Source: Shinella zoogloeoides (GTDB lineage: Bacteria > Pseudomonadota > Alphaproteobacteria > Rhizobiales > Rhizobiaceae). From it: 64,000 nt of DNA. Positions 9,145-27,172 of the stretch are shown one piece after another. A program made the translations under genes and the position numbers. Under the pieces are notes generated by a model. It had not been told where the DNA came from. It ran no database searches and worked only from the letters and a program-made list of their open reading frames with translations. Numbering within the stretch: the stretch's first letter is position 1; each line of letters begins with the position of its first letter. Location: the NCBI RefSeq assembly GCF_003574625.1, contig NZ_QNUJ01000002.1, positions 310,001 to 374,000 on the forward strand. The letters run 5' to 3'.

Positions 9145-9162
9145 TTGCAATACTCGTTGCAA
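9145..9162. promoter_or_regulatory. Candidate IolR operator upstream of iolD (site a)
   Basis: TTGCAA, six bases, TTGCAA stands in an AT-rich island between the upstream dehydrogenase gene and iolD. Related TTGCAA or TTGCAATA elements occur in five other promoter regions of this cluster (near 10391, 12433, 19521, 21728 and 27130). Assignment to the RpiR regulator encoded at 11465-12376 is inference. Confidence 0.5.
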
Positions 9163-9163
9163 T

Positions 9164-10354
9164 TCACGCCGGGAGCCGGCAATCCGCCCAGTCGCCCGAC
9201 CGGCTGGACGCCAGCGCGGCCTCGATGAACTTAACGCCGAGCGCGCCGTCCGTCACCGTCGGATAGTCCAGCAGCCCCTCGGGCAGCGTCCGGCCGAGCC
9301 GGCGCGCCTCGACGGCGATGGCGAATTCCTCGTAGAGGTTGCCCCAGGCGTCGCTCAGCGCCTCGGGATGGCCGCGCGGCATGTGCACGAAACGGGCGGC
9401 ATGGATGCCGATGCCCGCGCCCTCGCCGCGCGTCAGCAGGCGGGCCGGCTCGCCGAAGCGGCGGAAATGCAGCACTTCCGGCTCCTCCTGGTTCCATTCG
9501 AGACTCGCCTTGTCGCCGAAGGCGCGGATGCGCAGGCCGCAATGGGCGCCGGGCGCCACCTGCGAGATCATGATCGTACCGGGAATGTCGCCCTCGTAGC
9601 GCACATGCATGAAGGCGGTGTCCTCCAGCGGCTTTTCCGGGCCGAGCGTGTGGAACTCCGCCCGCACCGACGTCACCGGCCGGCCGCAGACGAAGGCGCC
9701 GAGATGGTGGCAATGGGTGCCGATATCGCCCGTCGTGAAGGTAGGGCCGACGATGGCGGGATCGACGCGCCATTGCGCGCCCGCCCCGCCCTCCTTCGGC
9801 GGCGTCAGCGCCCATTCCTGGAAATATTCGACATGGACCTGCTTGAGCGTCCCGAGCGCGCCCTCGCGGATCATCTGCCGCGCCTGCCGCACCATGGCGG
9901 AGGAGGCATAGGCATAGGTGACGGCGAAGACGAGGCCCGTCTCCTTCTGCCGGCGGACGAGGTCGAGCGCGTCGTTAAGCGTCGTCGTCAGCGGCTTGTC
10001 GCTGATGACGTCGATGCCCTTTTCCATGAAGGCGACGGCGATGGCGTGGTGCGAATTGTTCGGTGTGGCGATGGCGACGGCGTCGATGCCGTCCGGCCGC
10101 GCCGCCTCGCGCTCGGCCATCACGCGGTAGTCGGTATAGGCGCGGTCCTCGTCGAACAGCCATTCGCGGCCCGATTCCTTCGCGACCTGCGGGCGCGACG
10201 ACAGGGCCCCCGCCACCACGTCCCAACGGTTGGAAAGCCGCGCGCCGCGTGCATGCACCTTGCCGATGAAACTGCCCTGCCCGCCGCCGACGACACCCAG
10301 CCGCAAGCGCCGCTCCGCCTGCGGAAACGCCGCCTTGTCCGAATTTCCTGCCAT
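9164..10354 (-). CDS. Gfo/Idh/MocA family oxidoreductase (inositol cluster, long form)
   Basis: This 396-residue protein has an N-terminal Rossmann fold (GVVGGGQGSF at about residues 20-29), the DKPL motif with the expected catalytic lysine, and a C-terminal substrate domain with GDIGTHCHH. It is an NAD(P)-dependent dehydrogenase of sugars or cyclitols. It is longer than the 330-residue IolG group and resembles the 370-400-residue forms acting on stereoisomers or keto sugars. The ATG at 10354 has a GAGGGAGG site. The frame stays open far upstream, but that part is antisense to iolG. It is divergent from iolG across a shared regulatory region. Confidence 0.85.
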   Translation of the reverse strand: MAGNSDKAAFPQAERRLRLGVVGGGQGSFIGKVHARGARLSNRWDVVAGALSSRPQVAKESGREWLFDEDRAYTDYRVMAEREAARPDGIDAVAIATPNNSHHAIAVAFMEKGIDVISDKPLTTTLNDALDLVRRQKETGLVFAVTYAYASSAMVRQARQMIREGALGTLKQVHVEYFQEWALTPPKEGGAGAQWRVDPAIVGPTFTTGDIGTHCHHLGAFVCGRPVTSVRAEFHTLGPEKPLEDTAFMHVRYEGDIPGTIMISQVAPGAHCGLRIRAFGDKASLEWNQEEPEVLHFRRFGEPARLLTRGEGAGIGIHAARFVHMPRGHPEALSDAWGNLYEEFAIAVEARRLGRTLPEGLLDYPTVTDGALGVKFIEAALASSRSGDWADCRLPA

Positions 10355-10390
10355 GATCGCCTCCCTCGTCTCCTCTGCCCGAAAACGGGC

Positions 10391-10439
10391 TTGCAGAATT
10401 AATATTGAGAGAATATCAAAAACGCAATGAATTTTGCAA
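10391..10439. promoter_or_regulatory. Candidate IolR operators in divergent Gfo/iolG promoter (site b)
   Basis: TTGCAGAATTAATATTG (10391-10407) and GCAATGAATTTTGCAA (10424-10439) lie in the 99 bp between two divergent dehydrogenase genes. Both resemble the TTGCAA-type element seen upstream of iolD and elsewhere in the cluster. The second copy ends just before the ribosome site of iolG, a position suited to repression. Confidence 0.5.
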
Positions 10440-10453
10440 ACGGAGGAGAACCG

Positions 10454-11455
10454 ATGACGAGGATTGCACTGCTCGGCTGCGGACGCATCGGCAAGATGCA
10501 TGCGGCAACCATCGTGCGCGCCGAGGGCGCGGAACTGGCCGCGGTCTACGACCCCGTGACCGCCGCCGCCGAGGAGACGGGCCGCCGCCACGGCTGCACC
10601 GTCGCCGCAAGCGCGGAGGAAGCAATCGCGCTTGCCGACGCCGTGCTGATCGCCACCTCGACGCCGACCCATGCCGACCTCATCGAGGCTTCCGCGAGAG
10701 CCGGCAAGGCGGTGTTCTGCGAAAAGCCCATCGACCTCTCGCTCGCCCGCGTCGTCGCCTGCCGCAAGGCGATCGCCGGCTTTACGCGCCCCGTGCAGAT
10801 CGGCTTCAACCGCCGCTTTGATCCCGGCCACCGCGCCGCCCGCGATGCCGCCCGGGCGGGCGAGATCGGCGACCTCCAGCAGGTCATCATCACCTCGCGC
10901 GATCCCGGCCTTGCCCCGCGCGACTATCTCAAGGTCTCCGGCGGCATCTTCCGCGACATGACGATCCACGACTTCGACCTTGCCCGCTTCATGCTGGGCG
11001 AGGAGCCGGTCGAGGTCTTCGCCACCGGCAGCGCGCTGGTCGATCCGACACTCGCGGAACTGAACGACGTCGATTCCACGATGATCGTCATGCGCACGGC
11101 GAGCGGCAGGCTCTGCCACATCAACAACTCCCGCGCCGCCGCCTATGGCTACGACCAGCGCGTCGAGCTGTTCGGCTCGAAGGGCATGCTGATCTCCGGC
11201 AACCGCCGCGCTCACCAGGTCGAGCGCTTCAATGCGTCCTCGACCGGCGCGGGCGAACCCTATCTCGACTTCTTCATCGAGCGCTATGTCGAGGCCTTCG
11301 AGCTCGGCCTGCAATCCTTCCTGCGCTGCGTCGCGGAGAGCCGCACGCCGGACGTCACCTTCGACGACGGCGAGAAGGCGCTGGTTCTCGCCGAGGCCGC
11401 CATCCGCTCGCGCGCCGAGGGGCGCTTCGTCAACGTCGCGGAGATCACGGGCTGA
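10454..11455 (+). CDS. iolG: Inositol 2-dehydrogenase (IolG/IdhA-type)
   Basis: This 333-residue Gfo/Idh/MocA enzyme fits IolG, which oxidises myo-inositol to 2-keto-myo-inositol with NAD+. Features are the GCGRIG dinucleotide motif at residues 8-13, EKPIDL with the catalytic lysine, QIGFNRRFD, and the MTIHDFDLARF region with Asp and His of the active site. ATG at 10454 follows a GGAGGAG site. It is a single gene, divergent from the long dehydrogenase and convergent with iolR. Of the four Gfo/Idh/MocA enzymes here it is the best match to the myo-inositol enzyme. Confidence 0.86.
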   Translation: MTRIALLGCGRIGKMHAATIVRAEGAELAAVYDPVTAAAEETGRRHGCTVAASAEEAIALADAVLIATSTPTHADLIEASARAGKAVFCEKPIDLSLARVVACRKAIAGFTRPVQIGFNRRFDPGHRAARDAARAGEIGDLQQVIITSRDPGLAPRDYLKVSGGIFRDMTIHDFDLARFMLGEEPVEVFATGSALVDPTLAELNDVDSTMIVMRTASGRLCHINNSRAAAYGYDQRVELFGSKGMLISGNRRAHQVERFNASSTGAGEPYLDFFIERYVEAFELGLQSFLRCVAESRTPDVTFDDGEKALVLAEAAIRSRAEGRFVNVAEITG

Positions 11456-11464: not shown

Positions 11465-12376
11465 TCAGCCCTTGCGCCGCTGCTTGCCCGTGACCGTCGG
11501 GATCTCGGGCGAGCCCTTCTTGTCCTCCTGCAGCAGCGCGGCGAGCGCGACGGCGATGGCCTGCGTCAGGCACATGGGCGCGGCGAGCGAGCGCGAGAAG
11601 GAATATTCGTCCTCGGGGATGGTGAAGAGCACCGTGGCATTCTTGGCAAGCGGCGAGAGCTGGCTGTCGGTGATCGCCACGATGGGCGTGCCGTTCTCCG
11701 CCGCGACATCGGCGATGGTCACCACCTCCTTCGCATAGTGCCGGAAGGCGATGGCGACGAGCACGTCCTTCTTGCCCATGACCTTCGCCATCTCCGAGGC
11801 GAGCCCGCCGGCTGGATCGAGCAGGATGACGCGGCATTGCAGCATGGAGAGCACGTAGCGCAGGAACTTGGCGATGGGCTCGGAGCGGAGCTGGCCGGCG
11901 ATGAAGATCGTGTCGGCGTTCTTCAGCGTACGGGCCGTCCGCGTCAGGTTCTCTTCCGTCGTGGTGTTGAGAAGCTCCTGCAGGGTCGCGATGTCGCGCA
12001 CCACGAGGTCGTGCAGGAAGCCGAGATTGCCCTTGCGCTTGGTCTTCTCGAGGTCGACGTCGAGCGCGCTGATGCGCTCGCGATAGCCGGGCGCCGCCGT
12101 CGAAAGCCGGCTCTGGAACACCGACTGGAGCTGCTTGAAGCCGGAAAAGCCGAAATGCTGCGCGAAGCGCACGAGGATGGAGGGATGGGCGCCGCACTGT
12201 TCGGCAATCGCATTGATCGACTGCATGGCGACGATGTTCGGATTCTGCGTGACGAAGCGGGCGACCTGCTGGAAGCGGTCGGAAAGGTTCGGATAGGCTT
12301 GCGTGACGAGGTTGACGAAGGTCTCGTAATTCGCCGTCTTCGGCGGCGGCTGGTCGGACTGCTTTACCCTCGGCAT
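11465..12376 (-). CDS. iolR: MurR/RpiR family transcriptional regulator, probable inositol regulator IolR
   Basis: This 303-residue protein has an N-terminal RpiR-type helix-turn-helix domain (about residues 1-85, including AIAEQCGAHPSILVRFAQHFGF) and a C-terminal SIS phosphosugar-binding domain (about 125-260). In Sinorhizobium and relatives, an RpiR-type IolR represses inositol genes and responds to a pathway intermediate. Its position beside iolG and iolD supports that role. Its promoter region carries the same TTGCA-type elements as the other cluster promoters, suggesting autoregulation. The 3' end is 9 bp from iolG in convergent orientation. Confidence 0.8.
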   Translation of the reverse strand: MPRVKQSDQPPPKTANYETFVNLVTQAYPNLSDRFQQVARFVTQNPNIVAMQSINAIAEQCGAHPSILVRFAQHFGFSGFKQLQSVFQSRLSTAAPGYRERISALDVDLEKTKRKGNLGFLHDLVVRDIATLQELLNTTTEENLTRTARTLKNADTIFIAGQLRSEPIAKFLRYVLSMLQCRVILLDPAGGLASEMAKVMGKKDVLVAIAFRHYAKEVVTIADVAAENGTPIVAITDSQLSPLAKNATVLFTIPEDEYSFSRSLAAPMCLTQAIAVALAALLQEDKKGSPEIPTVTGKQRRKG

Positions 12377-12689: not shown

Positions 12690-13637
12690 TCAGTAAGGCG
12701 CGTCGGGGAAGTAATATTCTGCGGCGTTGTCCTTGGTGATCAGCGGGCTGCCGAGCACGTAGCGGCCGTTGATCGGGGCCTGGGTCGCATATTTCATCGT
12801 GACGAGCTCGATAGCCGGGATGATCAGGGTCGGCGGGTAGAAGATGTCGGCATCGACCATGTCGTGGCCGTCCTGCACCAGCTTGATGACCTTGTTCATG
12901 CCCGAGCCGCCGAGCACGGCGACATTCTTGCGATCGGCCTGCTTGATCGCCTCGATGGCGCCGAGCGCCGCGTCGTCGTCGCCGGCCCAGACGCCGTCGA
13001 TCTGCGGGAAGCGCTGGAGATAATCCTGCATGACTTCAAAACCCTTGTCCGGGTTCCAGTTGGCGTACTGCATGTCGAGCACCTCGATCTTGGTGCCCTT
13101 CAGCGCCTCGTTGAAGGCCTCGATGCGGATATTGTCGATGGCCGTCGGGATGCCGCGCATCACGACGATCTTGCCGCCGTCGGGGAACTTCTTCTTGAAG
13201 TATTCGGCCGCCGCCTTGCCGTATTGCGGGTTGTCGCCGCCGACATAGAGGTCCTCGATGCCCTCTTCCGCAAGGCCGCGGTCGACGGTGGCGATGAAGA
13301 CGCCCTTGGCCTTGGCGGCCTTGACCGGCTCGGTCAGCGGATCGGATTCGAAGGGCAGCACGACGAGCGCGTTGATGTTGCGCGCCATCAGGTCCTCGAT
13401 GTCGTTCACCTGCTGGGTGGCGCTCGACGATGTCGCCAGCACGAAATCGATGTTCGGGAAGGCTTCCTTCATCCGGTCGATAGTGCGCTTGGTGTGGTAG
13501 TTGAGGCCGCCCGTCCAGCCATGCGTGGCGGCAGGAATGGAAATGCCGATCACGGCATCGGCGGAAAGCGCCGGCGAGGCAAGGCCCGCGACGGCCACCG
13601 CACCCGCGGCGATGAAGGATTTCAGTCTGTTGAACAT
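12690..13637 (-). CDS. Sugar/cyclitol ABC transporter periplasmic binding protein (PBP type 1)
   Basis: This 315-residue protein has a signal peptide (cleavage after about residue 26 at ALSA) and the RbsB-type periplasmic binding fold, with ATHGWTGGLNYHTK near the first ligand-binding segment, DRGL in the middle and GDDDAALGA near the hinge. It would deliver a monosaccharide or cyclitol to the permease encoded 37 bp upstream. Being last in a six-gene operon with catabolic dehydrogenases and an aldolase suggests its ligand feeds that pathway. Similarity in type to inositol-binding IbpA/MocB proteins is inference. Confidence 0.9.
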   Translation of the reverse strand: MFNRLKSFIAAGAVAVAGLASPALSADAVIGISIPAATHGWTGGLNYHTKRTIDRMKEAFPNIDFVLATSSSATQQVNDIEDLMARNINALVVLPFESDPLTEPVKAAKAKGVFIATVDRGLAEEGIEDLYVGGDNPQYGKAAAEYFKKKFPDGGKIVVMRGIPTAIDNIRIEAFNEALKGTKIEVLDMQYANWNPDKGFEVMQDYLQRFPQIDGVWAGDDDAALGAIEAIKQADRKNVAVLGGSGMNKVIKLVQDGHDMVDADIFYPPTLIIPAIELVTMKYATQAPINGRYVLGSPLITKDNAAEYYFPDAPY

Positions 13638-13674
13638 TCACACGTCTCCCTGTTGAAGTGAAAAGGTGGCGGCG

Positions 13675-14691
13675 TCAGCCCTGCGAACGATCCCGTTGCA
13701 GGAGGACGGCGATGATGATGATCGCGCCCTGGAATGCGCCGTTGAGATAGGGGCTGATGAAGCCCGTGAGGTTGAGGATGTTGCTGATGAAGCCGAGGAT
13801 CAGCACGCCGACGATGGTGCCCCAGATGCGCCCGAAGCCGCCGGAAAGCGCCGTGCCGCCGATGATGACCGCGGCGATCGCCTCCAGCTCCCACATGAGG
13901 CCCGTCGAGGGCGTGGCCGCGCCGAGGCGCGGCACGTAGATGACCGTGGCGACGGATACGCAGAGGCCCTGGATGACATAGGTGAGGATGCGCACGCGGC
14001 TGACGGGGATCGCCGAATAGAAGGCGACGTGCCGGTTCGAGCCGATGGCCGCGACATGCCGGCCGAAGCGCATGCGCCGCAGCGTCAGCTCGCCGATGAC
14101 GGCGATGACCGCGAGCACGATGATCGGCACGGCGATGCCGAGGACCTGGCCGTAGTAGATCGGCCGGGCCGCGTCGCGCAGCGAGAAGTCGAGCGAGATC
14201 GAGCCGCCGTCCGCAAGCCAGGTGATGACCGAGCGGAAGATGCCCATGGCACCGAGCGTGACGATGAAGGCCTCCACCCGGCCCTTGACGATCATGAAAC
14301 CGTTGATGAAGCCCGCGAAGGCGCCGATGGCGAGCGAGAAGGCGATGCCGGCGGCAACGAGCAGCCAGCCGTCGCCGAGCGTGGCGGCGGCCGCGTTCAT
14401 GAACATGATCGTCATGCCCGCGACGAGCGCCGAGAGCGAGCCGACGGAAAGGTCGAGCCCGCCCGCCGTGATGACGAAGGTCGCCCCGACCGCGATGATG
14501 CCGATGATGGCGCTGCGGGTGAAGACGTTGGAAAGGTTCTCCGCGCCGAGGAAGCTGTCGCTCATCAGCGAGCCGACGATCATCAAGAGGATGAGGGCGA
14601 GGAGCGGGCCGGCGGCCTCCAGAAGGCGCACGAGGGAGCGCCCGGGCGACGCAGCGGCGACGCCCGCGGTCGTTGCGGTCATGTCAGTCAA
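13675..14691 (-). CDS. RbsC-type sugar ABC transporter permease
   Basis: This 338-residue inner-membrane protein has about eight to ten hydrophobic segments and the RbsC/AraH family motifs, including TAGGLDLSVGS in the first third and GGTALSGGFG in the last third. It forms the channel for the sugar transporter and overlaps the ATPase gene by 4 bp. It is followed by the binding protein gene. Confidence 0.93.
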   Translation of the reverse strand: MTDMTATTAGVAAASPGRSLVRLLEAAGPLLALILLMIVGSLMSDSFLGAENLSNVFTRSAIIGIIAVGATFVITAGGLDLSVGSLSALVAGMTIMFMNAAAATLGDGWLLVAAGIAFSLAIGAFAGFINGFMIVKGRVEAFIVTLGAMGIFRSVITWLADGGSISLDFSLRDAARPIYYGQVLGIAVPIIVLAVIAVIGELTLRRMRFGRHVAAIGSNRHVAFYSAIPVSRVRILTYVIQGLCVSVATVIYVPRLGAATPSTGLMWELEAIAAVIIGGTALSGGFGRIWGTIVGVLILGFISNILNLTGFISPYLNGAFQGAIIIIAVLLQRDRSQG

Positions 14692-16196
14692 TGGCTTGCC
14701 TCCTCCTGTGGACTTGCCTCTTCAAGGCCCATGGCAAATCGGATGATGTCGTTCTCGGTGATGGCGTCGCCCGAAAGCTCACCGGCGATGCGCCCGCGGC
14801 GCATCACGAGCACCCGGTCGGAAAGGCCGACGATCTCCTGCATCTCCGAGGAGATGACGACGATGGCCTTGCCTTCGGCGGCGAGCCCCGCGATGATCTC
14901 GTAGATCTGCTGCTTGGCGCCGATGTCGACGCCGCGCGTCGGTTCGTCGAAGACGACGAGGTCCGGCTCGACACCGAGCGTCTTGGCGATCAGCACCTTC
15001 TGCTGGTTGCCGCCGCTGAGCGCGCCCGCCGTCACGTCCAGACGGCCGGCGCGGATGTCGTAGCGCTCGACCGCCGCCTCCAGATCGCGCCGCTCGGCCC
15101 GCCGGTCGATCCATGCGGCCCCGGCGATGGCGCCCCTTGTCAGCGCGACGTTCTGGTCGAGCGGCTTGGCCAGCAGCAGGCCCTTGCCCTTGCGGTCTTC
15201 CGTGAGATAGGCAAGCTTCAGCGCCCAGGCCTCGCGCGCCGCCGGCAGACGGCGTTCCCTGCCGCGCAGCACGAAGGAGCGGCATTTCGCCGGACGAAGG
15301 CCGAGCAGCGCCTCGAAGAGTTCCGTGCGGCCCGAGCCGACGAGGCCGGAAATGCCGAGCACCTCGCCCTCGCGGATATCGAGCGAGGCATCCTCGACGG
15401 CGCCCGGCGCGGACAGGCCGGCAACGCTGAGGAACGCCTTGCGCGGCGTGGCCTCGCGACGGGGCGGGTAGATCTCCGCCAGCGGCCGGCCGACCATGGC
15501 CTCGGCCATCTCGTTCTCGGAAATGGCGCTCGTCTTCTCCACCCGCACGATCTGTCCGTCGCGCAGCACCGCGACGCGGTCGGCAATGGCCTTGACCTCG
15601 TCGAGGCGGTGCGAGGTGAAGATCACCGAGCCGCCGCTCTTACGGAAGGCGCGGATGCGGGTAAAGAGATTGCCGGCCTCGGTGGCGGAGAGGACGGCGG
15701 TCGGCTCATCCATCAGGATGAGCTTCGGCTGGCGGGCGAAGGCTTTCGCAAGCTCGATCATCTGCCAGTCGGAGACCGGCAGGTCGCGAAGCCGCGCCCT
15801 GACGGGGGCGGCTGAGCCGAGTTCGGCGAGAAGCGCGCGCGCCTTCACCTCCATCGCCTTGCGGTCGGTAAAGAGGCCGCGCGTCAGCTCGCGGCCGAGG
15901 AAGACGTTCTCCGCCACCGTCAGGTGCGGGGCGAGGCAGAATTCCTGGTGCACCATGACGATGCCGGCGCGCTCGGCCTCCTGCAGCGTCGTAGGCGCGG
16001 GCGCACCGTCGAGCAGCATGGTGCCGGCCGAAGGGGCGGCAAGGCCGGCCGCGATGCGCATGAGCGTCGACTTGCCGGCGCCGTTCTCCCCGACGAGGGC
16101 GAGAACCTCGCCCGGCTCGACGGCAAGCTCGATGCCCTTGAGGACCGGCACGACGCCGTAGGATTTCTCGATCTGGCGGAAGGTCAGGAGCGCCAT
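14688..16196 (-). CDS. RbsA-type sugar ABC transporter ATPase (two-domain)
   Basis: This 502-residue protein has two fused nucleotide-binding domains, as in RbsA/MglA. The first has Walker A GENGAGKS at residues 36-43 and Walker B LILMDEPTAVLS. The second has a degenerate GLVGSGRTE Walker A, the usual state in this family, the signature LSGGNQQKV and Walker B LVVFDEPTRGVD. It powers the transporter formed with the next two genes, and its start is 2 bp from the stop of the hydroxyacid dehydrogenase gene. Confidence 0.93.
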   Translation of the reverse strand: MALLTFRQIEKSYGVVPVLKGIELAVEPGEVLALVGENGAGKSTLMRIAAGLAAPSAGTMLLDGAPAPTTLQEAERAGIVMVHQEFCLAPHLTVAENVFLGRELTRGLFTDRKAMEVKARALLAELGSAAPVRARLRDLPVSDWQMIELAKAFARQPKLILMDEPTAVLSATEAGNLFTRIRAFRKSGGSVIFTSHRLDEVKAIADRVAVLRDGQIVRVEKTSAISENEMAEAMVGRPLAEIYPPRREATPRKAFLSVAGLSAPGAVEDASLDIREGEVLGISGLVGSGRTELFEALLGLRPAKCRSFVLRGRERRLPAAREAWALKLAYLTEDRKGKGLLLAKPLDQNVALTRGAIAGAAWIDRRAERRDLEAAVERYDIRAGRLDVTAGALSGGNQQKVLIAKTLGVEPDLVVFDEPTRGVDIGAKQQIYEIIAGLAAEGKAIVVISSEMQEIVGLSDRVLVMRRGRIAGELSGDAITENDIIRFAMGLEEASPQEEASH

Positions 16197-16198
16197 GG

Positions 16199-17188
16199 TC
16201 AGGCCCCGACGGCCGAAAGGCGCTGCGCGGCGATCTCGGAGCGGTTGACGACCAGCGCCGGATCGAGCGTGCCCTTGAAATAGTCGACGATGTTCGTGGC
16301 CGCCGAAATCGCCATGCGGCGCGCGCAGGCTTCCGTCAGGCCCGCATTGTGCGGCGAGAGCACGACGCGCTCGCAGGCGAGCATCGGGTCGCCCGGAGCC
16401 GGCGGCTCGGCGTCGAACACGTCGAGGCCGGCGGCGGCAAGACGGCCCTCGTTCAACGCGGCAAGCAGCGCCGCCTCGTCGATCAGCCCGCCGCGCGCCG
16501 TGTTGACGAGGACGGCCGAGCGCTTCATGGCGGCCAGTTCCGCCACACCGATCAGCGGTTCGGCGCCGGATTTCGGCACATGCAGCGAGACGACGTCGGC
16601 GCGCTTCAGCCCGTCCATGAGGTCGCCGACCGGGGTGACGCCCGCCGCCGCGATCTCGGCGGCGTCCTGGAACCTGTCATAGGCGATGACCGCCATGCCG
16701 AGCGCCGCCGCGATCTGCGCCAGCCGCCGGCCGATGCGCCCGAAGCCGACGATGAGGAGCGTGCGCCCGTCGAGTTCGTCCGCATCGAGGCTGTTGCGGT
16801 AGTTCCAGTCGCCGGCGCGCATCTTGCGGTCGAAGAGCACGGTGCGTCGCGCGGCCGCCAGCATCAGCATGACGGCATGCTCGGCGACGGCGCGCGAATT
16901 GACGTCGCCGACGACGGCGAGCGGAATGCCCCGGGCATTCAGCGCCGCGACATCGACGGAATCGTAGCCGACGCCGTGGCGGGAGACGATGCCGAGCCGG
17001 GGCGCCTTCTCGACGAAGGCGGCCGGCAGCGGCTGGGTGCGGATGAGCAGCGCATCGGCGGCCGGCAGGAACGGCTCGTAGCTCGCCGCCGAGACCTCCT
17101 CGACATAATCCACCGTCACCCCGGGCGCAGCATGAAGGACGGCGAGGCCGTCGGCGTGGATCTTGCCCGCGACGAGAACCCTCGGCAT
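16199..17188 (-). CDS. D-2-hydroxyacid dehydrogenase, NAD-dependent
   Basis: This 329-residue enzyme is a D-isomer-specific 2-hydroxyacid dehydrogenase of the SerA/glyoxylate-reductase type. GFGRIGRRLA is the Rossmann motif, and Arg in NTARGG, Glu in FDAEPP and His in LSPHNAG form the catalytic set. It lacks the C-terminal ACT domain of long SerA proteins. It begins directly after the stop of the aldolase gene, so the two are very tightly coupled. A reasonable role is oxidation or reduction of a C3 hydroxyacid made by the aldolase or aldehyde dehydrogenase, but the substrate is unknown. Confidence 0.88.
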   Translation of the reverse strand: MPRVLVAGKIHADGLAVLHAAPGVTVDYVEEVSAASYEPFLPAADALLIRTQPLPAAFVEKAPRLGIVSRHGVGYDSVDVAALNARGIPLAVVGDVNSRAVAEHAVMLMLAAARRTVLFDRKMRAGDWNYRNSLDADELDGRTLLIVGFGRIGRRLAQIAAALGMAVIAYDRFQDAAEIAAAGVTPVGDLMDGLKRADVVSLHVPKSGAEPLIGVAELAAMKRSAVLVNTARGGLIDEAALLAALNEGRLAAAGLDVFDAEPPAPGDPMLACERVVLSPHNAGLTEACARRMAISAATNIVDYFKGTLDPALVVNRSEIAAQRLSAVGA

Positions 17189-18004
17189 TCAGTATCCTCC
17201 CGTGTCGATCTTGTTTGCCGGAACGACTTCCTGCGTCAGCTCGCGGAACTTTCGAACGCTCGCCTCCGCCGCGCCGGCGAGCAGGCGCACGTCGTTGGAG
17301 ACGGTCACGAAATCGAAGCCCCAGCTCACCGCCTCGGCGGCATAGTCCGGCGTGCCGTTGTGCAGCGCGGCGCGCTTGCCCGCCTTGTGGGCGGCGTGGA
17401 GGATGGTCTTGATCGCCTCGATCATCTCTGGCTCGCGGCGGTCGAAGCCCGGCGCATATTTCTTGCCCTGCAACCCGAGCGTCAGGTCGGCGGGGCCGAT
17501 ATAGACGCCGTCGAGGCCTGGGGTCGCGAGGATATCCTCGAGGTTCTCATAGGCCTGCGCCGTCTCGATCATGGCGAGGCAGATGATCTCTTCGTCGGCT
17601 TCCGCCGCATAGCCGGGGCCGGCGGAAAAGAGCGCCCGGCTCGGGCCGAAGCTGCGCACGCCGGCGGGCGGATAGCGCACATAGGAGACCAGCCGCTCTG
17701 CCTCGGCGCGGGTATTGATCATCGGGCAGATGACACCGTAGGCCCCGGCATCCAGCGCCTTCATGATGTCGGCGGGGTCGAGCCAGGGCACGCGCACCAG
17801 CGGCGTCACGCCGCTCGCCCGCATCGCTTGCAGCATCGGCACCGCGCCGTCATAGCCGACGATGCCGTGCTGCATGTCGATGGTGACGCTGTCATAGCCC
17901 TGCGCGGCCATGATCTCCGCGCTGAAGGAATTGGCGATGGAGAGCCAGCCGTTGAGCACCGGCCTGCCTTCCGCCCAGCGCTGCTTGACACCGTTCCTGA
18001 TCAT
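17189..18004 (-). CDS. HpcH/HpaI family class II aldolase
   Basis: This 271-residue protein belongs to the HpcH/HpaI aldolases, metal-dependent enzymes that cleave 2-keto-3-deoxy acids to pyruvate (or hydroxypyruvate) and an aldehyde. Family residues seen are DMQHG with His46, LVRVPW with Arg71, the metal ligand Glu in MIETAQA, and Asp in GPADLTLG. The start at 18004 follows a GGAGGC site; the frame is open upstream but only as antisense of the next gene. Its place between an aldehyde dehydrogenase and a hydroxyacid dehydrogenase in an inositol-type cluster suggests cleavage of a deoxy-keto acid derived from the cyclitol. Confidence 0.88.
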   Translation of the reverse strand: MIRNGVKQRWAEGRPVLNGWLSIANSFSAEIMAAQGYDSVTIDMQHGIVGYDGAVPMLQAMRASGVTPLVRVPWLDPADIMKALDAGAYGVICPMINTRAEAERLVSYVRYPPAGVRSFGPSRALFSAGPGYAAEADEEIICLAMIETAQAYENLEDILATPGLDGVYIGPADLTLGLQGKKYAPGFDRREPEMIEAIKTILHAAHKAGKRAALHNGTPDYAAEAVSWGFDFVTVSNDVRLLAGAAEASVRKFRELTQEVVPANKIDTGGY

Positions 18005-19520: not shown

Positions 19521-19538
19521 AGCAATTATTATTGCAAG
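19521..19538. promoter_or_regulatory. Candidate IolR operator of the ALDH-aldolase-transporter operon (site d)
   Basis: GCAATTATTATTGCAA (19522-19537) is an imperfect palindrome in an AT-rich island just upstream of the six-gene operon. On the other strand it reads TTGCAATAATAATTGC, very close to TTGCAATAATATTG at site e. Confidence 0.5.
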
Positions 19539-19579: not shown

Positions 19580-20554
19580 TCAGCGCGGCTTTTCGGGCAG
19601 TGTGAGCGGGGTGCGCCGGCGCGTTTCCATCGCGGCGACGATCTGGTCGGCAAGGCAGGTGGCGACGAGGCCGTCCCAGGCGGTCGAGCCGTCCGCGGGC
19701 GGCGTGCCGGCGCGGATGCCGTCGACCCAGGCCTGGTCCTGGATGCGGTAGGCATCGCGGAAGCGTGGAATCCAGTTTTCCGGGAAAGCCCCCTCCTCCG
19801 CGCCGTCGCGGCGGGTGCGGATCGGTGCGGGATGCGCCATGCCGACCGTGCCCTTCGCGCAGACGGCCTCCGCATGGACATGGTAGCCATAGGCGGCGTT
19901 CATGAAGACCTCGACGGAAACGATGCTGCCGGCCTCCGTCTCGAAGACGAAGAGCGCGGGGTCGCCCCCGGGAGACGGGATGACGGTGACGGCGCTGTAT
20001 TCCGTCGACAGCAGCCAGCGGCAGACGTCGATCTCGTGCACCAGCGAATTGGTGACGGCCATCGCGCCGGTGAACCAGGCGGGCGCGGCGAGATTGCGGT
20101 GCTGGCAATGGAGGATGCGCACGCCGCCGAGCGCGCCGCCGTCGACGGCCGCCTTCATCTCGCGATAGGCGGGATCGAAGCGGCGCATGAAGCCGGTCTG
20201 CACCAGCGGACGGCCGGCGCGCGCCTCGGCCACGACGATCTCCAGGCACTCCTGCGTGCTGGCGGCGAGCGGCTTTTCGCAGAGCACCGGCTTGCCGGCG
20301 GCGATCGCCGCCAGCACGAGCCGCTGGTGCGTCGCATCCGGCGAGGCGATCAGCACGGCCGCGACCGAAGGATCGGCGATGAGGGCCTCGGGGTCCGTCA
20401 TCGCCCGGCCGCCATGCGCCGCCGCCTCGGCCCGCGCCGGGTCCGCGTCGGCGACGGCGGCAAGATGCGCGCCGGAGACCTCGCGGGCGATGATGCGCGC
20501 ATGTTCCGCGCCCATCACGCCCGCCCCGATGACGCCGATACCGATGCTTCTCAT
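19580..20554 (-). CDS. Gfo/Idh/MocA family oxidoreductase (inositol 2-dehydrogenase-like)
   Basis: This 324-residue dehydrogenase has the GVIGAGVMGAEH Rossmann motif at about residues 7-18, CEKPLAAS with the catalytic lysine, QTGFMRRFD, and a SLVHEIDVCRWLL segment with the active-site Asp. Length and motifs are near IolG, so oxidation of an inositol isomer or inositol-like polyol is likely. ATG at 20554 follows GAGGGAGGAAGAG. It is second in a two-gene operon, 17 bp after another dehydrogenase of the same superfamily. Confidence 0.85.
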   Translation of the reverse strand: MRSIGIGVIGAGVMGAEHARIIAREVSGAHLAAVADADPARAEAAAHGGRAMTDPEALIADPSVAAVLIASPDATHQRLVLAAIAAGKPVLCEKPLAASTQECLEIVVAEARAGRPLVQTGFMRRFDPAYREMKAAVDGGALGGVRILHCQHRNLAAPAWFTGAMAVTNSLVHEIDVCRWLLSTEYSAVTVIPSPGGDPALFVFETEAGSIVSVEVFMNAAYGYHVHAEAVCAKGTVGMAHPAPIRTRRDGAEEGAFPENWIPRFRDAYRIQDQAWVDGIRAGTPPADGSTAWDGLVATCLADQIVAAMETRRRTPLTLPEKPR

Positions 20555-20571
20555 GGCTCTTCCTCCCTCGC

Positions 20572-21687
20572 TCAGTCCACCGCCAGCCAGCTTCCGGCGC
20601 GGGCGGACTTCTGGATCGTTTCCACCAATGTCTGGATGCGCAGGCCCGCACGGAAATTGAACGGCTCGGGCCGAAGGCCGGCGATCGCCTCCAGATAGCC
20701 TGCAACCTCGATGGCCTTCAGGTCGTTGAAGCCGAGCTGATGGCCGGGTGCCACGCAGAAACGGCCATAGGGCACATGGTCCGGCCCCGCCTCGATGCGG
20801 CGGAACCCCTGCCGGCCCCTGGCATCCGCCGTCGAGTAGAAATGCAGCTCGTTGAAGCGCTCCTGCGAGAAGGCGAGCGCGCCCTTCGTGCCGTAGACCT
20901 CGAAATCGTGCTGCATCTTGCGGCCGGTAGCGATCCAGTTGCCCTCGACGGAGCCGCTCGCACCATTCGCAAAGCGCAGGAAGGCGCGGCCGACATCGTC
21001 GGTCTCGACCGGGCGCGTGCCGCCCCTGCCGTCCGGCCGCTGCGCGATCATCGTCACGCAATCGCCCATGACGCGGGTGATCGGGCCGAGCAGATATTCG
21101 GCGGTCGCCAGCGCATGGCTGCCGATATCGGCGAGCGCCCCGCCGCCCGCCGGATCGTGCCGGAAGGTGAAGGGCGCGCCGGCATCGGCCATGTAGTCCT
21201 CGGCATGGAGGCCACGATAACCGCGGATCTCGCCGAGCTCGCCGCCGGCGATCATCTCCTTCGCGAGGGCGAGCATGGGATTGCAGAGATAGTTGAAGCC
21301 GACCTGCGTCTTGATGCCGGCCTTCTCGGCCGCCTCCGCCATCTCGCGCGCGTCAGTGGAAAGCGGGGCGAGCGGCTTTTCGCAATAGACGTGCTTGCCA
21401 GCGGCAATGGCGGCAAGCGCCATCTCCTTGTGCAGCGCGTTCGGCGCGGTGATGTCGATGAGGTCGATCTCGGGATCGGCGACGAGGCTGCGCCAGTCGT
21501 CGGTGGCGCGCTGGAAGCCGAGCGCGGCGCGGGCGGCCTCGGCCTGCGCCATCGTCACGTCGGCGATGGCGGTCAGTTCCACCTCGTAAGGCAGGTCGAA
21601 CACCCGCGCGGCGGCGGCAAAGCCGAACACATGCGTCTTGCCCATGAAACCCGACCCGATGAGGCCAAGGCGGAGCGTCTTCTTCAT
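20572..21687 (-). CDS. Gfo/Idh/MocA family oxidoreductase (371 aa form)
   Basis: This 371-residue protein has GLIGSGFMGKTH at about residues 8-19, CEKPLAP with the catalytic lysine, QVGFNYLCNP, and GGGALADIGSHA. The longer form with a GGALxDIGSH motif is typical of scyllo-inositol/L-glucose-type dehydrogenases and related sugar oxidoreductases. ATG at 21687 lies after GAGGATCAGCAGA. It is divergent from iolE over a region with several TTGCAA-type elements, so both are likely induced together. Confidence 0.85.
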   Translation of the reverse strand: MKKTLRLGLIGSGFMGKTHVFGFAAAARVFDLPYEVELTAIADVTMAQAEAARAALGFQRATDDWRSLVADPEIDLIDITAPNALHKEMALAAIAAGKHVYCEKPLAPLSTDAREMAEAAEKAGIKTQVGFNYLCNPMLALAKEMIAGGELGEIRGYRGLHAEDYMADAGAPFTFRHDPAGGGALADIGSHALATAEYLLGPITRVMGDCVTMIAQRPDGRGGTRPVETDDVGRAFLRFANGASGSVEGNWIATGRKMQHDFEVYGTKGALAFSQERFNELHFYSTADARGRQGFRRIEAGPDHVPYGRFCVAPGHQLGFNDLKAIEVAGYLEAIAGLRPEPFNFRAGLRIQTLVETIQKSARAGSWLAVD

Positions 21688-21727: not shown

Positions 21728-21757
21728 TGCAATTATCTTTGCAATAATATTGAAATG
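21728..21757. promoter_or_regulatory. Candidate IolR operators between divergent dehydrogenase and iolE (site e)
   Basis: TGCAATTATCTTTGCAAT (21728-21745) and, overlapping it, TTGCAATAATATTG (21739-21752) stand in an AT-rich island between the two divergent start codons. This is the densest copy of the shared element. Confidence 0.55.
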
Positions 21758-21838: not shown

Positions 21839-22738
21839 ATGAAAGCCAGACTTGGCATTGCCCCCATTGCATGGTGGAACGACGACCTGCCGGAAATCAG
21901 CAGCGACATCTCGCTGGAAGGCTGCCTTGCCGAAGCCGCAGAGGCCGGCTTCACCGGCATGGAGACCGGCCGGCGCTTCCCGATGGACGCGGCCGTGCTG
22001 CGCCCCATCCTCGAAAAACATGGCATCCAGGTCTGCGGCGGCTGGTTCTCCGGCCTCCTGCTCGACGGCGACATCGAGGCGGAGAAGGACCGGATCGCCG
22101 CGCAGATGGCGCTGTTCAAGGCGGTCGGCGCGCCCTGCATCGTCTATGGCGAGACGGCCGGCACCATCCAGGGCGACCGCAACGCGCCGCTCTCCACCAA
22201 GCGCCGGCTCTCCGAGGACGAGATCCGCGCCTATGGCCGCAAGATGACCGCCTTCGGCGAATGGTGCGCCGATCAGGGCATGCCGATCTCCTATCACCAC
22301 CACATGGCCGCGCCCATCGAGACCGAGGAAGAGCTCGATCTCCTGATGAAGCATTCCGGCGAGGGCCTGCCGCTGCTCTTCGACGCCGGCCACATGGCCT
22401 TTGCCGGCGGCGACGTGCTGCGCGTCATCGACAAACACCACAAGCGCATCAGCCATGTCCACACCAAGGACGTCCGCCTGCCCGTCATCGCAGCCCTCGA
22501 CCGCACGAAGGAAAGCTTCCTCGACGCGGTGATCAAGGGCGCCTTCACGGTCCCCGGCGACGGCAGCCTCGACTTCGAGGCCATCGTCAAGCGCCTCGCC
22601 TCCCATGGCTACGAGGGCTGGTTCGTCGTCGAGGCGGAGCAGGATCCCACCCACAACCCGCCGCTCGGCATGGCGAAGATCGGCCATAAGGAACTCCTGC
22701 GCGTCATGGCGGCCGCCGGTTACGAGGTGGTCCGCTAA
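21839..22738 (+). CDS. iolE: Myo-inosose-2 dehydratase (IolE/MocC family)
   Basis: This 299-residue TIM-barrel protein matches IolE, which dehydrates 2-keto-myo-inositol to the trihydroxycyclohexane-dione substrate of IolD. Family motifs are IAWWNDDLPE near the start, ISYHHHM with barrel histidines, LLFDAGHMAFAGGD, HTKDVR, and the C-terminal GDGSLDFEAI and VEAEQDP strings. The start at 21839 follows CCGGAG. Rhizopine-catabolic MocC belongs to the same family, so a role on a modified inosose is also possible. It is monocistronic, with a strong hairpin after its stop. Confidence 0.92.
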   Translation: MKARLGIAPIAWWNDDLPEISSDISLEGCLAEAAEAGFTGMETGRRFPMDAAVLRPILEKHGIQVCGGWFSGLLLDGDIEAEKDRIAAQMALFKAVGAPCIVYGETAGTIQGDRNAPLSTKRRLSEDEIRAYGRKMTAFGEWCADQGMPISYHHHMAAPIETEEELDLLMKHSGEGLPLLFDAGHMAFAGGDVLRVIDKHHKRISHVHTKDVRLPVIAALDRTKESFLDAVIKGAFTVPGDGSLDFEAIVKRLASHGYEGWFVVEAEQDPTHNPPLGMAKIGHKELLRVMAAAGYEVVR

Positions 22739-22918: not shown

Positions 22919-23695
22919 TCAGATCGTGCCGCCGAGCGAGCTTTCCAGCAAGGCGAGCTCCTGCCCGCCCGCCATCATGTCCTGCAGGGCGGCGGCGTCC
23001 ACCGTGCCGCGCTCGGCCGTGCCCAGCGTCTGGCCGCGGTTGAGCACGGTGAAGCGGTCGCCGACGGCGAGCGCGTGGCGGACGTTGTGCGTGATGAAGA
23101 CGACGCCGATGCCCTGCTTGCGCACGCGGTCGATGGTGCTGAGGACATTGGCCGTCTGGCGCACGCCGAGCGCCGAGGTCGGCTCGTCGAGGATCAGCAC
23201 CTTGGCGCCGAAATAGACCGCCCGCGCGATGGCGACGGTCTGCCGCTCGCCGCCCGAGAGCGTGCCGACGGCCTGGTCCGGCCCGCGCAGGTTGATGCCC
23301 ATCTTGCGCATCTCCGTCACGGTGATCTCGTCTGCCTTCGACGTATCGAAGGTCTTGAACGGCCAGATGCCCCGCTCCGGCTCGCGCCCCATCCAGAAAT
23401 TGCGGCTGACGCTCATCAGCGGGATCATCGCGAGGTCCTGGTAGACCGTGGCGATACCCGCGGCCATGGCGTCGCGCGGGCTGTGGAAGGGTGTCGGCGT
23501 GCCCTCCACCAGCACTTCGCCGTCGCTCGGCTTGTAGACGCCGGACATGATCTTGATGAAGGTCGACTTGCCGGCCCCGTTGTCGCCGAGCAGGCAATGG
23601 CACTCGCCCGGCCGGATGTCGAAGGAGACGCCGGCCAGCGCGATGACATGGCCGAAGTGCTTCTGGATGTTCCTCATCTCCACGATGGCGGTCAT
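22919..23695 (-). CDS. Sugar ABC transporter ATPase, single-domain (FrcA-like)
   Basis: This 258-residue ATPase has one nucleotide-binding domain. Walker A GDNGAGKS is at residues 37-44, then the signature LSGGERQTV and Walker [13 protein letters not shown]. Single-domain ATPases with RbsC-type permeases are typical of rhizobial fructose/cyclitol-type systems such as FrcBCA. ATG at 23695 overlaps the permease stop by one base (TGATG). The frame stays open upstream, but that part is antisense-like to the permease gene. Confidence 0.9.
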
Positions 23696-24816
23696 CAGCG
23701 TTCTCCCGTGATGATGCGGCGGATATAGGTGTTCATGATCACCGCCGTGAGCAGGATGACGCCGAGAAAGACGCGGAACAGCGAGCTTTCGGCATTGGCG
23801 AAGAACAGGCCCTGCTGCACCACGCCGAAGATGATGGCCCCGAGCGCCGCACCGATGACGGAGCCGTAGCCGCCCGTCAGAAGCGCCCCGCCGATGACCA
23901 CGCAGATGATCGCCTCGAACTCCTTGAGGAGGCCGCGGTCGGCCGCCGCCGAGCCGAACTCCATCACCTGGCAGGTGGCGAAGACGCAGGCGCAGAAGGC
24001 CGAGAACATGAACATCAGGATCTTCACCCGGTTGACCGGCACGCCGACATAGCGCGCGGCGAGCGGGTCGCCGCCCGAGGCGAAGATCCAGTTGCCGAAC
24101 TTGGTGCGGGTGAGCAGCCAGTGGCCGAAGACGACGAGCACGATGGCCCAGACGACGAGCATCGGGACGCCGTCGATCACCGGCTGGCCGGCGCGGTTGC
24201 CGCGGGTGAAGGTGGCGATCCAGCCCGCCTCGCCCATCCAGGCAAAGAAGCCGGTCAGGATCTTGCCGCCGAAGAGCGGCGCCAGCCAGTCGCCGGCCGC
24301 CTTCTCGCCGACACCGCCGATGATCGTCTGGCGGGTGAAGTAGACCGAGCCCCAGATCGTCAGGCCGCGCAGGATATAGAGGAAGGCGAGCGTGACGATG
24401 AAGGACGGCAGCCCCGTGCGGATGACCAGCCAGCCGTTCACCGCGCCGATGAAGACGCAGAAGACGAAGGTGGCAATGATGGAAAGCCACAGCGGCACGC
24501 CGAGATGGACGGAGAGGATCGCCATCATCACACCGGAAAAGCCGATCATCGAGCCGGTGGAAAGGTCGAACTCGCCCGCGATCATCAGAAGGCAGGCGCC
24601 GACCGCGATGACCATGAACTGTGCCGAGACCACGGTCCAGTTCATCACGCCCTCGGCGGCGAACATGCCGCTGTCGCCGGCGACGATGGCGAACAGCAGG
24701 AAGACCAGGATGGTGCCGCAGATGCCGCCGAGCTCGGGCCGGATCAGCGCGCGCCGAAGCGGCGAGACGGGCTTGATGCGCTCGTCCTTCGACGCGCCGT
24801 TAATGACGTCCGTCAT
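23695..24816 (-). CDS. Sugar ABC transporter permease (FrcC/RbsC-like)
   Basis: This 373-residue inner-membrane permease of the RbsC/FrcC group has an extra cytoplasmic N-terminus of about 30 residues, multiple membrane segments, the [10 protein letters not shown] motif near residue 80 and [10 protein letters not shown] in the last third. It also has a long periplasmic insertion at about residues 160-225. It is preceded by the binding-protein gene, with a strong stem-loop between them. Confidence 0.9.
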
Positions 24817-24844
24817 GAATGCATTCTCCTCCCTCGAAAATCGT

Positions 24845-24875
24845 TCGGGGCGCGCCGTCGACCGGCGCGCCCCGA
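24845..24875 (-). promoter_or_regulatory. Intra-operon stem-loop between binding-protein and permease genes
   Basis: TCGGGGCGCGCCG (24845-24857) and CGGCGCGCCCCGA (24863-24875) form a perfect 13-bp stem with a 5-base loop, 13 bp after the binding-protein stop codon. Such hairpins commonly protect the upstream binding-protein mRNA and lower downstream permease expression. Confidence 0.65.
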
Positions 24876-24887
24876 CGGACCGTCAGG

Positions 24888-25832
24888 TCAGCGGTACTGA
24901 CCCGCCAGCGACTCGACGAGCGCGATATTGTCCTTGGTCACGAAGCCCGGACCCGTGAAGATCGAGTTGGCCGGGGCGACGCCGTAGCGGACATAGTTCG
25001 TCAGCACCTGGATCGGGATAGAGCCCTGGAGGAAGGGCTGCTGGTCGATGGCGAAGTTGATCGTGCCGTCCTTGATCGCCGCCGAGATCTCGGAGGAGAG
25101 GTCGAAGGTGCCGAAATAGATGTCGCCGTCGAGGCCCATCTCCTTGACCGCGCGGATCGAGGGTTCGGCCGAGTTCGGGCCGAGCGTGAGGATCGCGCCG
25201 GTATCCTTGTTGGCCGTCAGGTAGGCTTTCACCTTGTTCTGCACTTCCGACGGGTCGATGCCGGAATCGATCATCTGGTTGCCGAGTTCGACGCCGATGC
25301 CGTCGGCAAAGCCGCGGCAGCGCTCCACGGAGGCCGGGTTGGTGATGTAGTGGTTCACGCACACGAAGCTCTTGACGCCCGCTTCCTTGGCACGCTTGCC
25401 GGCACCGAGCCCCGCCTCGTATTCCGGCTGGCCGACATGCAGCAGCGCGCCGAGCTTCTGGCTTTCCTCGACCGTGCCGGAATTGACGGTGACGACCGGG
25501 ATGCCCTTGGCGACGGCGTCCTTGATCGGCCCTTCGAGCACGTTGTAGTCGGCGATGGTGACGATGATGCCGTCGACGCCGGCCGCCGAGCTCTGCTGGA
25601 CGATACGCGCCATGTCGGCAAGGTCGCCCGTCGGCGGGTTGCGGTATTCGGTCTCGACATGCATCTGCTCGTTCGTGACCTTGATGGCGTTCTTGATGAC
25701 GTTGAACCAGCTGTCGCTGTCCGGTCCATGGCTGATCCAGACGAACTTCTCGCCGTCGGCATGGGCCGCGCCGGCAAGCGCGGTCGTGGCCAGAAGCGCG
25801 CCGAGCGCCAGCGATTGCAGAATCTTCTTCAT
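24888..25832 (-). CDS. Sugar/cyclitol ABC transporter periplasmic binding protein (second system)
   Basis: This 314-residue protein has a signal peptide cleaved after about residue 25 (AAHA) and a PBP type 1 fold, with ISHGPDSDSWFNVIKN at the N-terminal ligand-binding segment and FGTFDLSSE later. It binds a sugar or sugar-like ligand for the following permease and ATPase. It starts 85 bp after the PhyH dioxygenase gene on the same strand, and no TTGCAA-type element lies in that gap, so it may be read from the dioxygenase promoter. Confidence 0.9.
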   Translation of the reverse strand: MKKILQSLALGALLATTALAGAAHADGEKFVWISHGPDSDSWFNVIKNAIKVTNEQMHVETEYRNPPTGDLADMARIVQQSSAAGVDGIIVTIADYNVLEGPIKDAVAKGIPVVTVNSGTVEESQKLGALLHVGQPEYEAGLGAGKRAKEAGVKSFVCVNHYITNPASVERCRGFADGIGVELGNQMIDSGIDPSEVQNKVKAYLTANKDTGAILTLGPNSAEPSIRAVKEMGLDGDIYFGTFDLSSEISAAIKDGTINFAIDQQPFLQGSIPIQVLTNYVRYGVAPANSIFTGPGFVTKDNIALVESLAGQYR

Positions 25833-25917
25833 ATGTGACTTCCTCCCGAAGTTGGCTTCCTGTTCGCTCCCCGCCCGAAGCCTTTGCGGGTAACCCTCTG
25901 TTTCTTATTAAGTCCGC

Positions 25918-27027
25918 TCAGGCCGCGCGCTTGGCGCCCTGTGCATCGAGAGCGGCATCGAGCCGCGCCTGGTCCCAGCCCTCCGCGACGGCGCGGGCGA
26001 GCAGTTCCTGTTGGCTTTCCGGCGCAAGGCCGCCCAGCGGCGGGTCGGTGTCGAGATTGGTCGGGAACGGATAACCGTCCGCCGTCGCCGCGATCACCGC
26101 CCGCCGCCCCGCCGGAGAAAGAGCCGCCAGGTGCGGATAGACTGCGCGCGCCATCGCCGTGCGGTCAAGGCTTTCCATGTGGCGCGCGAAGGCGGAGGCC
26201 GTCTGGATGAGGTTGACCATGCGCACGACGTCGCTCGTGCGGTTCTCGCCGGCGGCGTGGAAGAGCGCCGGGCTGAAGAAGATGGCATCGCCCTTTTCCA
26301 GCGGAAGCTGGACGCAGTGCTCCTCGAAATAGTCGCGGAATTCCGGGCGCGTGGCGGCGATATAGCCCGGCAGGTAGCGCTGCGAATGCGGCAGCAGCTT
26401 CGTCGTGCCGCTCTCCACCGGCATGTCGCAATGGGCGACGCCCCCCTGCAGGATCAGCGTCGGGCCGGTCGCGTGGATATGGGCCGGATATTCCGCCATC
26501 TGCTCGGGCTTCATGAAGCCGAGATGGTAGTCGCGGTGCGGGGCCTGCGCCTTGCCGCCCGGTCGCACCTGGTTGACCTGGGTGGCGATCTGGTAGCCGG
26601 GGCCTAGCCAGGCGCGGCAGGCGATGTCGATCACCGGGTTGGCCATGTAGCGGGCATAGACGGCGGGATCGCGCAGGCACAGCTTCTGCAGGCTGTTCCA
26701 GATGCGGTCGTTGGCGCCGGCCTTGGCGAAATGGTCGCCCGCCGCCGTGCCGGCCGCCCGCTCGTCGGCGATGATTGCGCGGAACACTTCGCTCGCCGCG
26801 TCGATGGCGCCAGGATCGGTGAAGGCGCGCTTGACGACGAAGACGCCCGGCCCCTCGCCGATGACCGAGGCCCATTCCGCGGCGATGCCGTCGTTGACGG
26901 CAGCGCCGTCATAGATGGGGATGTTCTTCTCGATGGCGATCGCCGTCGGGCACATCGCCATCGTCGTCTCGGTTTCCACCTGGCGCCGGAATTGCGCAAG
27001 GTCGACAACCGTTGCAATATCATTCAT
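25918..27027 (-). CDS. Phytanoyl-CoA dioxygenase (PhyH)-type Fe(II)/2-oxoglutarate oxygenase
   Basis: This 369-residue protein has the PhyH facial triad, His164-x-Asp166 (PHRDYH) and His257 (ALFHAAGENR), with Arg263 as the likely 2-oxoglutarate anchor. Such enzymes hydroxylate or oxidatively demethylate small molecules in the cytosol. ATG at 27027 follows CAGGAGG. It is upstream of a complete sugar ABC transporter on the same strand and has a TTGCAA-type element in its promoter region. I infer that it modifies the transported compound, for example removing an O-methyl group from a methylated inositol; the substrate is not known. Confidence 0.82.
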   Translation of the reverse strand: MNDIATVVDLAQFRRQVETETTMAMCPTAIAIEKNIPIYDGAAVNDGIAAEWASVIGEGPGVFVVKRAFTDPGAIDAASEVFRAIIADERAAGTAAGDHFAKAGANDRIWNSLQKLCLRDPAVYARYMANPVIDIACRAWLGPGYQIATQVNQVRPGGKAQAPHRDYHLGFMKPEQMAEYPAHIHATGPTLILQGGVAHCDMPVESGTTKLLPHSQRYLPGYIAATRPEFRDYFEEHCVQLPLEKGDAIFFSPALFHAAGENRTSDVVRMVNLIQTASAFARHMESLDRTAMARAVYPHLAALSPAGRRAVIAATADGYPFPTNLDTDPPLGGLAPESQQELLARAVAEGWDQARLDAALDAQGAKRAA

Positions 27028-27129
27028 CGAAATCCTCCTGTCCGATGTCCGAAGATCGTCCGACGGCAGCATCCATCGGTCCCGCACCGCCCCTCCAAGG
27101 CCGCGCGGGCCGCATGCACAGATCAAAAA

Positions 27130-27172
27130 TTGCAGCCATCAACTGTCTGCAATATTAATTGTGAAATTTTGC
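27130..27172. promoter_or_regulatory. Candidate IolR operators upstream of the PhyH gene (site f)
   Basis: TTGCAGCCATC (from 27130), and CTGCAATATTAATTGTG followed by AAATTTTGC (27147-27172), lie about 100-145 bp upstream of the PhyH start. They resemble the elements at sites b, d and e of the inositol cluster. Confidence 0.45.

Follow-up and report, generated by a model that had tools for sequence, protein, structure and literature searches.

The window analyzed here, a 64-kb stretch of the 5.375-Mb genome of Shinella zoogloeoides (positions 310001-374000 of contig C12), contains a gene cluster with the inositol genes iolD, iolG and iolE and a gene, rpiR, which encodes an RpiR-family regulator. 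Sequence comparisons indicate that this resident RpiR is very probably a second, diverged IolR, predicted to bind the dyad GCAA-N6-TTGC at five promoter regions of the cluster. Computation directly gave the dyad with its location and conservation, and also its association with this RpiR. Operator and regulator form a cluster-specific variant of the IolR kind, in which the identity of the regulator is probable. The pair recurs in several bacterial groups and is testable, the paralogue that this genome also encodes being a natural control.

The dyad in the window

A previous sequence-only reading had proposed that AT-rich islands at six promoter regions share a TTGCAA-type element. The strings are present where that reading placed them; however, TTGCAA is at chance frequency in the window (8 seen versus 7.97 expected, and at least 8 in 57 of 100 shuffles) and was ruled out as the shared unit. 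The strings are halves of a fixed-spacer dyad, GCAA-N6-TTGC, which is seen six times versus 0.84 expected, a number reached in none of 100 shuffles. Four of the six exact copies lie inside the noted islands (9147, 10424, 19522 and 21729) and the island of the PhyH-family dioxygenase gene (PhyH) shows a copy with one core mismatch at 27149; the other two exact copies are inside open reading frames, at 10622 (matrix score 4.4) and 29491 (6.7). The element is thus present in five of the six noted islands, those of iolD, iolG, the aldehyde dehydrogenase gene, iolE and PhyH, but not in that of rpiR. The five predicted sites are given below, with their matrix scores and the number of composition-preserving shuffles of the island that matched the observed score.

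9147..9160, unstranded: predicted operator site GCAATACTCGTTGC, 74-87 bp before the iolD start; score 25.3; 0/2000 shuffles
10424..10437, unstranded: predicted operator site GCAATGAATTTTGC, between divergent genes, 17-30 bp before iolG and 70-83 bp before a Gfo/Idh gene; score 25.2; 0/2000 shuffles
19522..19535, unstranded: predicted operator site GCAATTATTATTGC, 70-83 bp before the aldehyde-dehydrogenase operon; score 30.3, the best of the window; 0/2000 shuffles
21729..21742, unstranded: predicted operator site GCAATTATCTTTGC, between divergent units, 42-55 bp from a Gfo/Idh pair and 97-110 bp from iolE; score 27.6; 0/2000 shuffles
27149..27162, unstranded: predicted operator site GCAATATTAATTGT, with one core mismatch, 122-135 bp before PhyH; score 21.8; 1/2000 shuffles

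The matrix was built from 93 sites with an exact core, all lying outside called gene bodies, in the non-Shinella loci of RpiR orthologues described below, its core being thus fixed by choice. The five cluster sites have the five highest scores of the 64 kb and the next one is 13.6. As background, 239,772 positions from elsewhere in this genome gave a best score of 15.2, a 240-kb set which excludes stretches around other RpiR and iolD genes; in eight further stretches around those genes it was 16.7 (L081) followed by 16.4 (L079), and 16.7 is thereby the best over all 20 stretches sampled elsewhere in the genome. With a threshold of 18, chosen by us and passed by all five cluster sites, 5 of 23 AT-rich islands of the window score positive, all within the cluster, versus none of the 210 islands outside the cluster in sampled stretches L079-L097. 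The outcome that the sequence-only reading had named as refuting, a background frequency of the motif across AT-rich intergenic regions, thus did not appear in the islands sampled. Outside the cluster, the window also shows a weak operator-like site at 39485-39504 (score 12.6).

Conservation of the dyad with rpiR

Scanning with the RpiR protein gave 47 orthologue loci with 60-96% identity, 38 of them non-Shinella, which belong mostly to Alpha-, Beta- and Gammaproteobacteria; one comes from a short contig that had been binned as Acidobacteria. All combinations of 256 four-base words and 17 spacers (4352 dyad forms) were counted in these loci, and GCAA-N6-TTGC ranked first, with 148 copies versus 24.9 expected and presence in 45 of the 47. 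It also ranked first in nine Shinella stretches, window included (46 versus 4.8), and in 28 non-Shinella representatives (83 versus 14.9; 27 of 28 loci); these representatives were hand-picked from the 38, with the siteless L050 among the ten omitted, and the proportion for all non-Shinella loci is 36 of 38. Furthermore, 127 of the 148 dyads are outside called gene bodies (70% of bases), while five control dyads show 8/18, 3/17, 4/5, 6/28 and 2/13. Gene maps of the relatives are automatic, and that of the window misses iolG, the HpaI gene, one Gfo/Idh gene and one ATPase gene, so that these counts are somewhat inflated, both for the dyad and for the controls. Among the 127, 32 are before iolD, 25 in the gap between the aldehyde dehydrogenase gene and rpiR, and 18 before the aldehyde dehydrogenase gene; 11 have no called gene start close by.

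Some of these loci show paired copies. In eight enterobacterial loci (L049, L054, L056, L057, L060, L062, L066 and L072), two copies are 218-220 bp apart in the gap between the aldehyde dehydrogenase gene and rpiR, a spacing that could allow looping, and in L035, L036, L052, L058 and L061 operator copies are paired at 28-29 bp.

Within the genus, 21 Shinella genomes were compared, the one studied here included; 13 have the RpiR and the same 13 have PhyH. A strict form of the site, GCAA-NWWWWN-TTGC, was found 64 times in the 13 RpiR-holding genomes and 11 times in the other eight, versus 21 and 10 for the reversed pattern used as control. The excess of strict sites sits in the RpiR-holding genomes, and 38 of the 64 are at most 25 kb from rpiR, in 12 of 13 genomes (rank test on counts, p 0.0006, the genomes being related to one another). 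A site upstream of PhyH is present in all 13 genomes that have this gene, with scores of 14.2-24.4.

The element thus follows RpiR across genomes, in agreement with the regulon that the sequence-only reading had drawn around this protein; what did not stand, besides TTGCAA as the unit, concerns rpiR itself. The island at 12433-12462 has no dyad, and its best matrix score of -8.4 was equalled by 1159 of 2000 shuffles. Likewise, the dyad was not found before rpiR in 12 of the 13 rpiR loci of the genus, those that could be oriented (best score 7.8). A dyad site at rpiR was therefore rejected in the window and in the genus loci alike, and direct autoregulation through the dyad is unsupported in Shinella. 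Upstream of rpiR, the last codons of the binding-protein gene (12707-12720) contain a GGAA-N6-TTCC-like string with one mismatch, which is exact in eight rpiR loci of the genus; there it matches the canonical IolR operator, yet probably reflects coding constraint.

The regulator, its canonical paralogue and alternative explanations

The window RpiR belongs to the MurR/RpiR family by its domains, PF01418 (42.5 bits; cut-off 28.3) followed by PF01380 (70.6 bits; cut-off 25), and the closest named relatives of its gene are from Shinella, with at most 96% identity. It resembles the alphaproteobacterial IolR described for Caulobacter crescentus (CC1297) and Sinorhizobium meliloti in the available text of the respective papers: these are RpiR-family proteins with a SIS domain, their targets are inositol enzymes and ABC (ATP-binding cassette) transporters, and their operator is a 14-bp palindrome with an N6 spacer. 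It differs in the operator, GCAA-N6-TTGC with an AT-rich spacer, in a His for Gln replacement, and in a cluster without iolB and iolC. The published IolR motif is GGAA-N6-TTCC; according to the accessible part of PMC2597717, mutation of one copy gave higher iolC promoter activity in Caulobacter, while mutation of a second copy did not raise it. The window operator differs from this motif at one base per half-site with equal N6 spacing; the sequence-only reading had suggested that it may differ. GGAA-N6-TTCC was rejected as the element of the cluster promoters, five of which carry GCAA-N6-TTGC: the window has one exact copy, at 5648 and outside the cluster, and its one-mismatch forms are near chance (25 versus 19.8 expected).

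The same genome also encodes a canonical IolR. Three iolD copies exceed the family cut-off, and that of contig C6 is within a classical set, RpiR-iolC-iolD-iolE-iolB, with GGAA-N6-TTCC between the RpiR gene and iolC and a second copy about 9.6 kb further; exact GCAA-N6-TTGC was not found in 20 kb around this set. The window regulator is thus not the one beside iolC-iolD-iolE-iolB, which has another RpiR, and the two proteins share 31% identity. In 18 canonical IolR loci, obtained from 121 genomes searched, GGAA-N6-TTCC is present in 11 and GCAA-N6-TTGC in two. The residue before the recognition helix is His in all 47 window-type orthologues and Gln in all 18 canonical IolR, the latter being a feature seen here and not a published criterion, and position 81 is Lys in the window-type group versus Ser or Thr in the canonical one. 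A structure model (mean pLDDT, predicted local distance difference test, 79.8) places residue 64 directly before a predicted helix at 65-74. The locus of the third iolD (L078:15222-19654, contig C1 of the same genome) has, by eye, IclR- and LacI-type regulators near; one exact GCAA-N6-TTGC with a low score (9.9) is located at L078:11923, 3.3 kb before this iolD.

In the proposed mechanism, an RpiR dimer would bind the 14-bp dyad, whose fuller form is near TTGCAA-WWWWWW-TTGCAA, and would repress the five promoter regions, by analogy with canonical IolR, until a pathway intermediate at the SIS domain ended repression. From the site before the aldehyde dehydrogenase gene, control would extend over that gene and, across gaps no longer than 37 bp, over the aldolase, the hydroxyacid dehydrogenase and transporter 1; from the PhyH site it would cover PhyH and, across gaps no longer than 85 bp, transporter 2. 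As each of these operons has a site, the dioxygenase and both transporters are predicted members of the regulon, as had been suggested. The published operator would have been altered at one base per half-site to GCAA-N6-TTGC, a change paralleled in the protein by His in place of Gln just ahead of the recognition helix and by Lys in place of Ser or Thr near the start of the next helix. We infer dimer binding and repression from the family and the position of the sites, as we do an effector and a role of the two residues in the operator difference.

Several results weigh against this interpretation. In the iol part of the window, the dyad ranks no higher than third of the 4352 forms (5 seen, 0.38 expected), so the window alone would not settle the matter; what speaks for the dyad is that its copies cluster, where they lie, and how other genomes compare. 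Two of the 47 orthologue loci, L050 and L055, have no exact site. The rpiR gene is without a site in Shinella, though the IolR of Salmonella and of Ensifer aridi (PMC8877191) affect their own promoters, as far as the available text of these papers goes. The relaxed dyad, with one mismatch, is found 39 times genome-wide versus 38 for the control, and 4 of the 39 are in the 18-kb cluster. The whole-genome profile is weak: built from 79 of 87 distinct sites (eight were dropped by hand, seven coding- or GC-rich-looking and one near duplicate), it gave, at an expectation value (E) of at most 10, three sites among the matches listed, all in the cluster, with a best E of 0.44, the 19522 site as top match and the iolD and PhyH sites unlisted. 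With 150 of 273 candidates scored, no regulon member outside the cluster is among those matches, and the relaxed pattern shows no excess. Furthermore, the residue and operator changes may each be a single event, and their match thus counts as one correlation, not many. Finally, another regulator accompanying the cluster would look identical.

Among the alternatives, it is unlikely, although less so than the others, that RpiR acts at these sites as an activator, or as activator and repressor, rather than as a plain repressor. The sites are spread over 17-135 bp before start codons and, judging by paper titles, RpiR-family activators such as GlaR and NanR exist; however, the parts available of PMC2597717 and PMC8877191 describe repression by the nearest IolR studied, those of Caulobacter and Sinorhizobium. 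Salmonella IolR represses inositol promoters, most of which have two sites or more; the comparison with it does not extend to operators, the words motif, consensus and palindrome being absent from the accessible text of the paper on it.

It is improbable that the dyad serves a different protein accompanying the cluster instead of RpiR, for example the LysR encoded at 27229-28122 or an inositol regulator of LacI type. LacI-type IolR, known from the available text of PMC4052901, also govern inositol genes through palindromes, the LysR gene adjoins the PhyH operon, and the annotation of regulators in the 47 loci covered RpiR. However, the window regulator is of RpiR type, and the same source gives a central CG pair for the LacI-type palindromes of 1173 of 1303 transcription factors, while the centre of the dyad is A/T. 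Moreover, the 45 loci with the dyad come from a set retrieved through RpiR, and its N6 spacing is that of the RpiR-type IolR operator (PMC2597717, in the part available). That AT-rich promoters in a GC-rich genome produced the likeness with no common regulator is scarcely credible: the chance frequency of TTGCAA and the genome-wide count of the relaxed dyad would agree with it, but the island shuffles, the 210 outside islands and the first rank of the dyad in loci of other genera already disfavour it, unless the samples are unrepresentative.

Gene cluster and a possible kinase-free inositol route

Besides rpiR and the three inositol genes, the cluster contains PhyH, two ABC transporters, three further Gfo/Idh dehydrogenase genes, and genes encoding an aldehyde dehydrogenase, an HpaI-type aldolase and a D-2-hydroxyacid dehydrogenase.

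7232..9073, reverse strand: iolD (TIGR04377, 839.2 bits; cut-off 715)
9164..10354, reverse strand: Gfo/Idh/MocA dehydrogenase
10454..11455, forward strand: iolG (TIGR04380, 395.6 bits; cut-off 355)
11465..12376, reverse strand: RpiR-family regulator with HTH_6 and SIS domains, proposed to recognise the dyad; His64 directly precedes the recognition helix
12433..12444, unstranded: TGCA-N4-TGCA, an element different from the operator dyad, upstream of rpiR; seen at 12 of the 13 rpiR loci in the genus
12690..16196, reverse strand: ABC transporter 1 (binding protein 12690-13637, permease 13675-14691, ATPase 14688-16196), downstream part of the aldehyde-dehydrogenase operon
16199..17188, reverse strand: D-2-hydroxyacid dehydrogenase
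17189..18004, reverse strand: HpcH/HpaI-type aldolase; among its top relatives of solved structure is the hydroxyketoacid aldolase 6r62 (SwHKA)
18016..19452, reverse strand: aldehyde dehydrogenase
19580..21687, reverse strand: two Gfo/Idh/MocA dehydrogenases (19580-20554 and 20572-21687)
21839..22738, forward strand: iolE (TIGR04379, 393.6 bits; cut-off 290)
22919..25832, reverse strand: ABC transporter 2 (ATPase 22919-23695, permease 23695-24816, rhizopine-type binding protein 24888-25832)
25918..27027, reverse strand: PhyH-family dioxygenase, whose gene heads the transporter-2 operon

The classical pathway comprises IolG, IolE, IolD, IolB and IolC, then IolJ or DUF2090, and this cluster is without the IolB isomerase and the IolC kinase. 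One copy each of iolC and iolB exceeds the cut-off in the genome, both on C6, and their proteins have no match in the window or in the 47 orthologue loci (tblastn, E 1e-15). In these loci, several of which end at contig ends, iolD recurs in 42, iolE in 37, the HpaI-type gene in 36 and the hydroxyacid dehydrogenase gene in 38, and iolB and iolC in none. At the C1 iolD locus, too, there are genes for a hydroxyacid dehydrogenase and an HpaI-type aldolase.

Tentatively, and with somewhat less than even probability, regulator and operator mark a separate kinase-free inositol pathway, its steps being drawn from chemical reasoning. IolG, IolE and IolD would lead to 5-deoxyglucuronate, whose aldehyde would be oxidised by the aldehyde dehydrogenase and whose 2-hydroxyl by a dehydrogenase; cleavage of the resulting 2-keto acid by the HpaI-type aldolase would then yield hydroxypyruvate and malonate semialdehyde. 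SwHKA (6r62) converts hydroxypyruvate, according to the accessible part of PMC10099721. Such a route would lack the IolC product, and its regulator would consequently have to sense a ligand different from the phosphorylated compound that the available text of PMC8877191 gives as the proposed ligand of canonical IolR. The operator also offers a search handle for inositol-type clusters without the classical isomerase and kinase, and it raises the question of which ligand the regulator responds to. A literature search gave no recognised report of this operator or of a kinase-free inositol route, which is weak evidence of absence since subscription journals were thinly covered.

The binding protein of transporter 2 scores 266 bits against the rhizopine family, under the cut-off of 420; given the PhyH dioxygenase in the operon, a methylated inositol is a conceivable substrate. 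In the gap that separates transporter 1 from rpiR, a palindromic repeat-like stretch is visible by eye at 12520-12690; it could act as a transcription terminator or represent a dispersed repeat.

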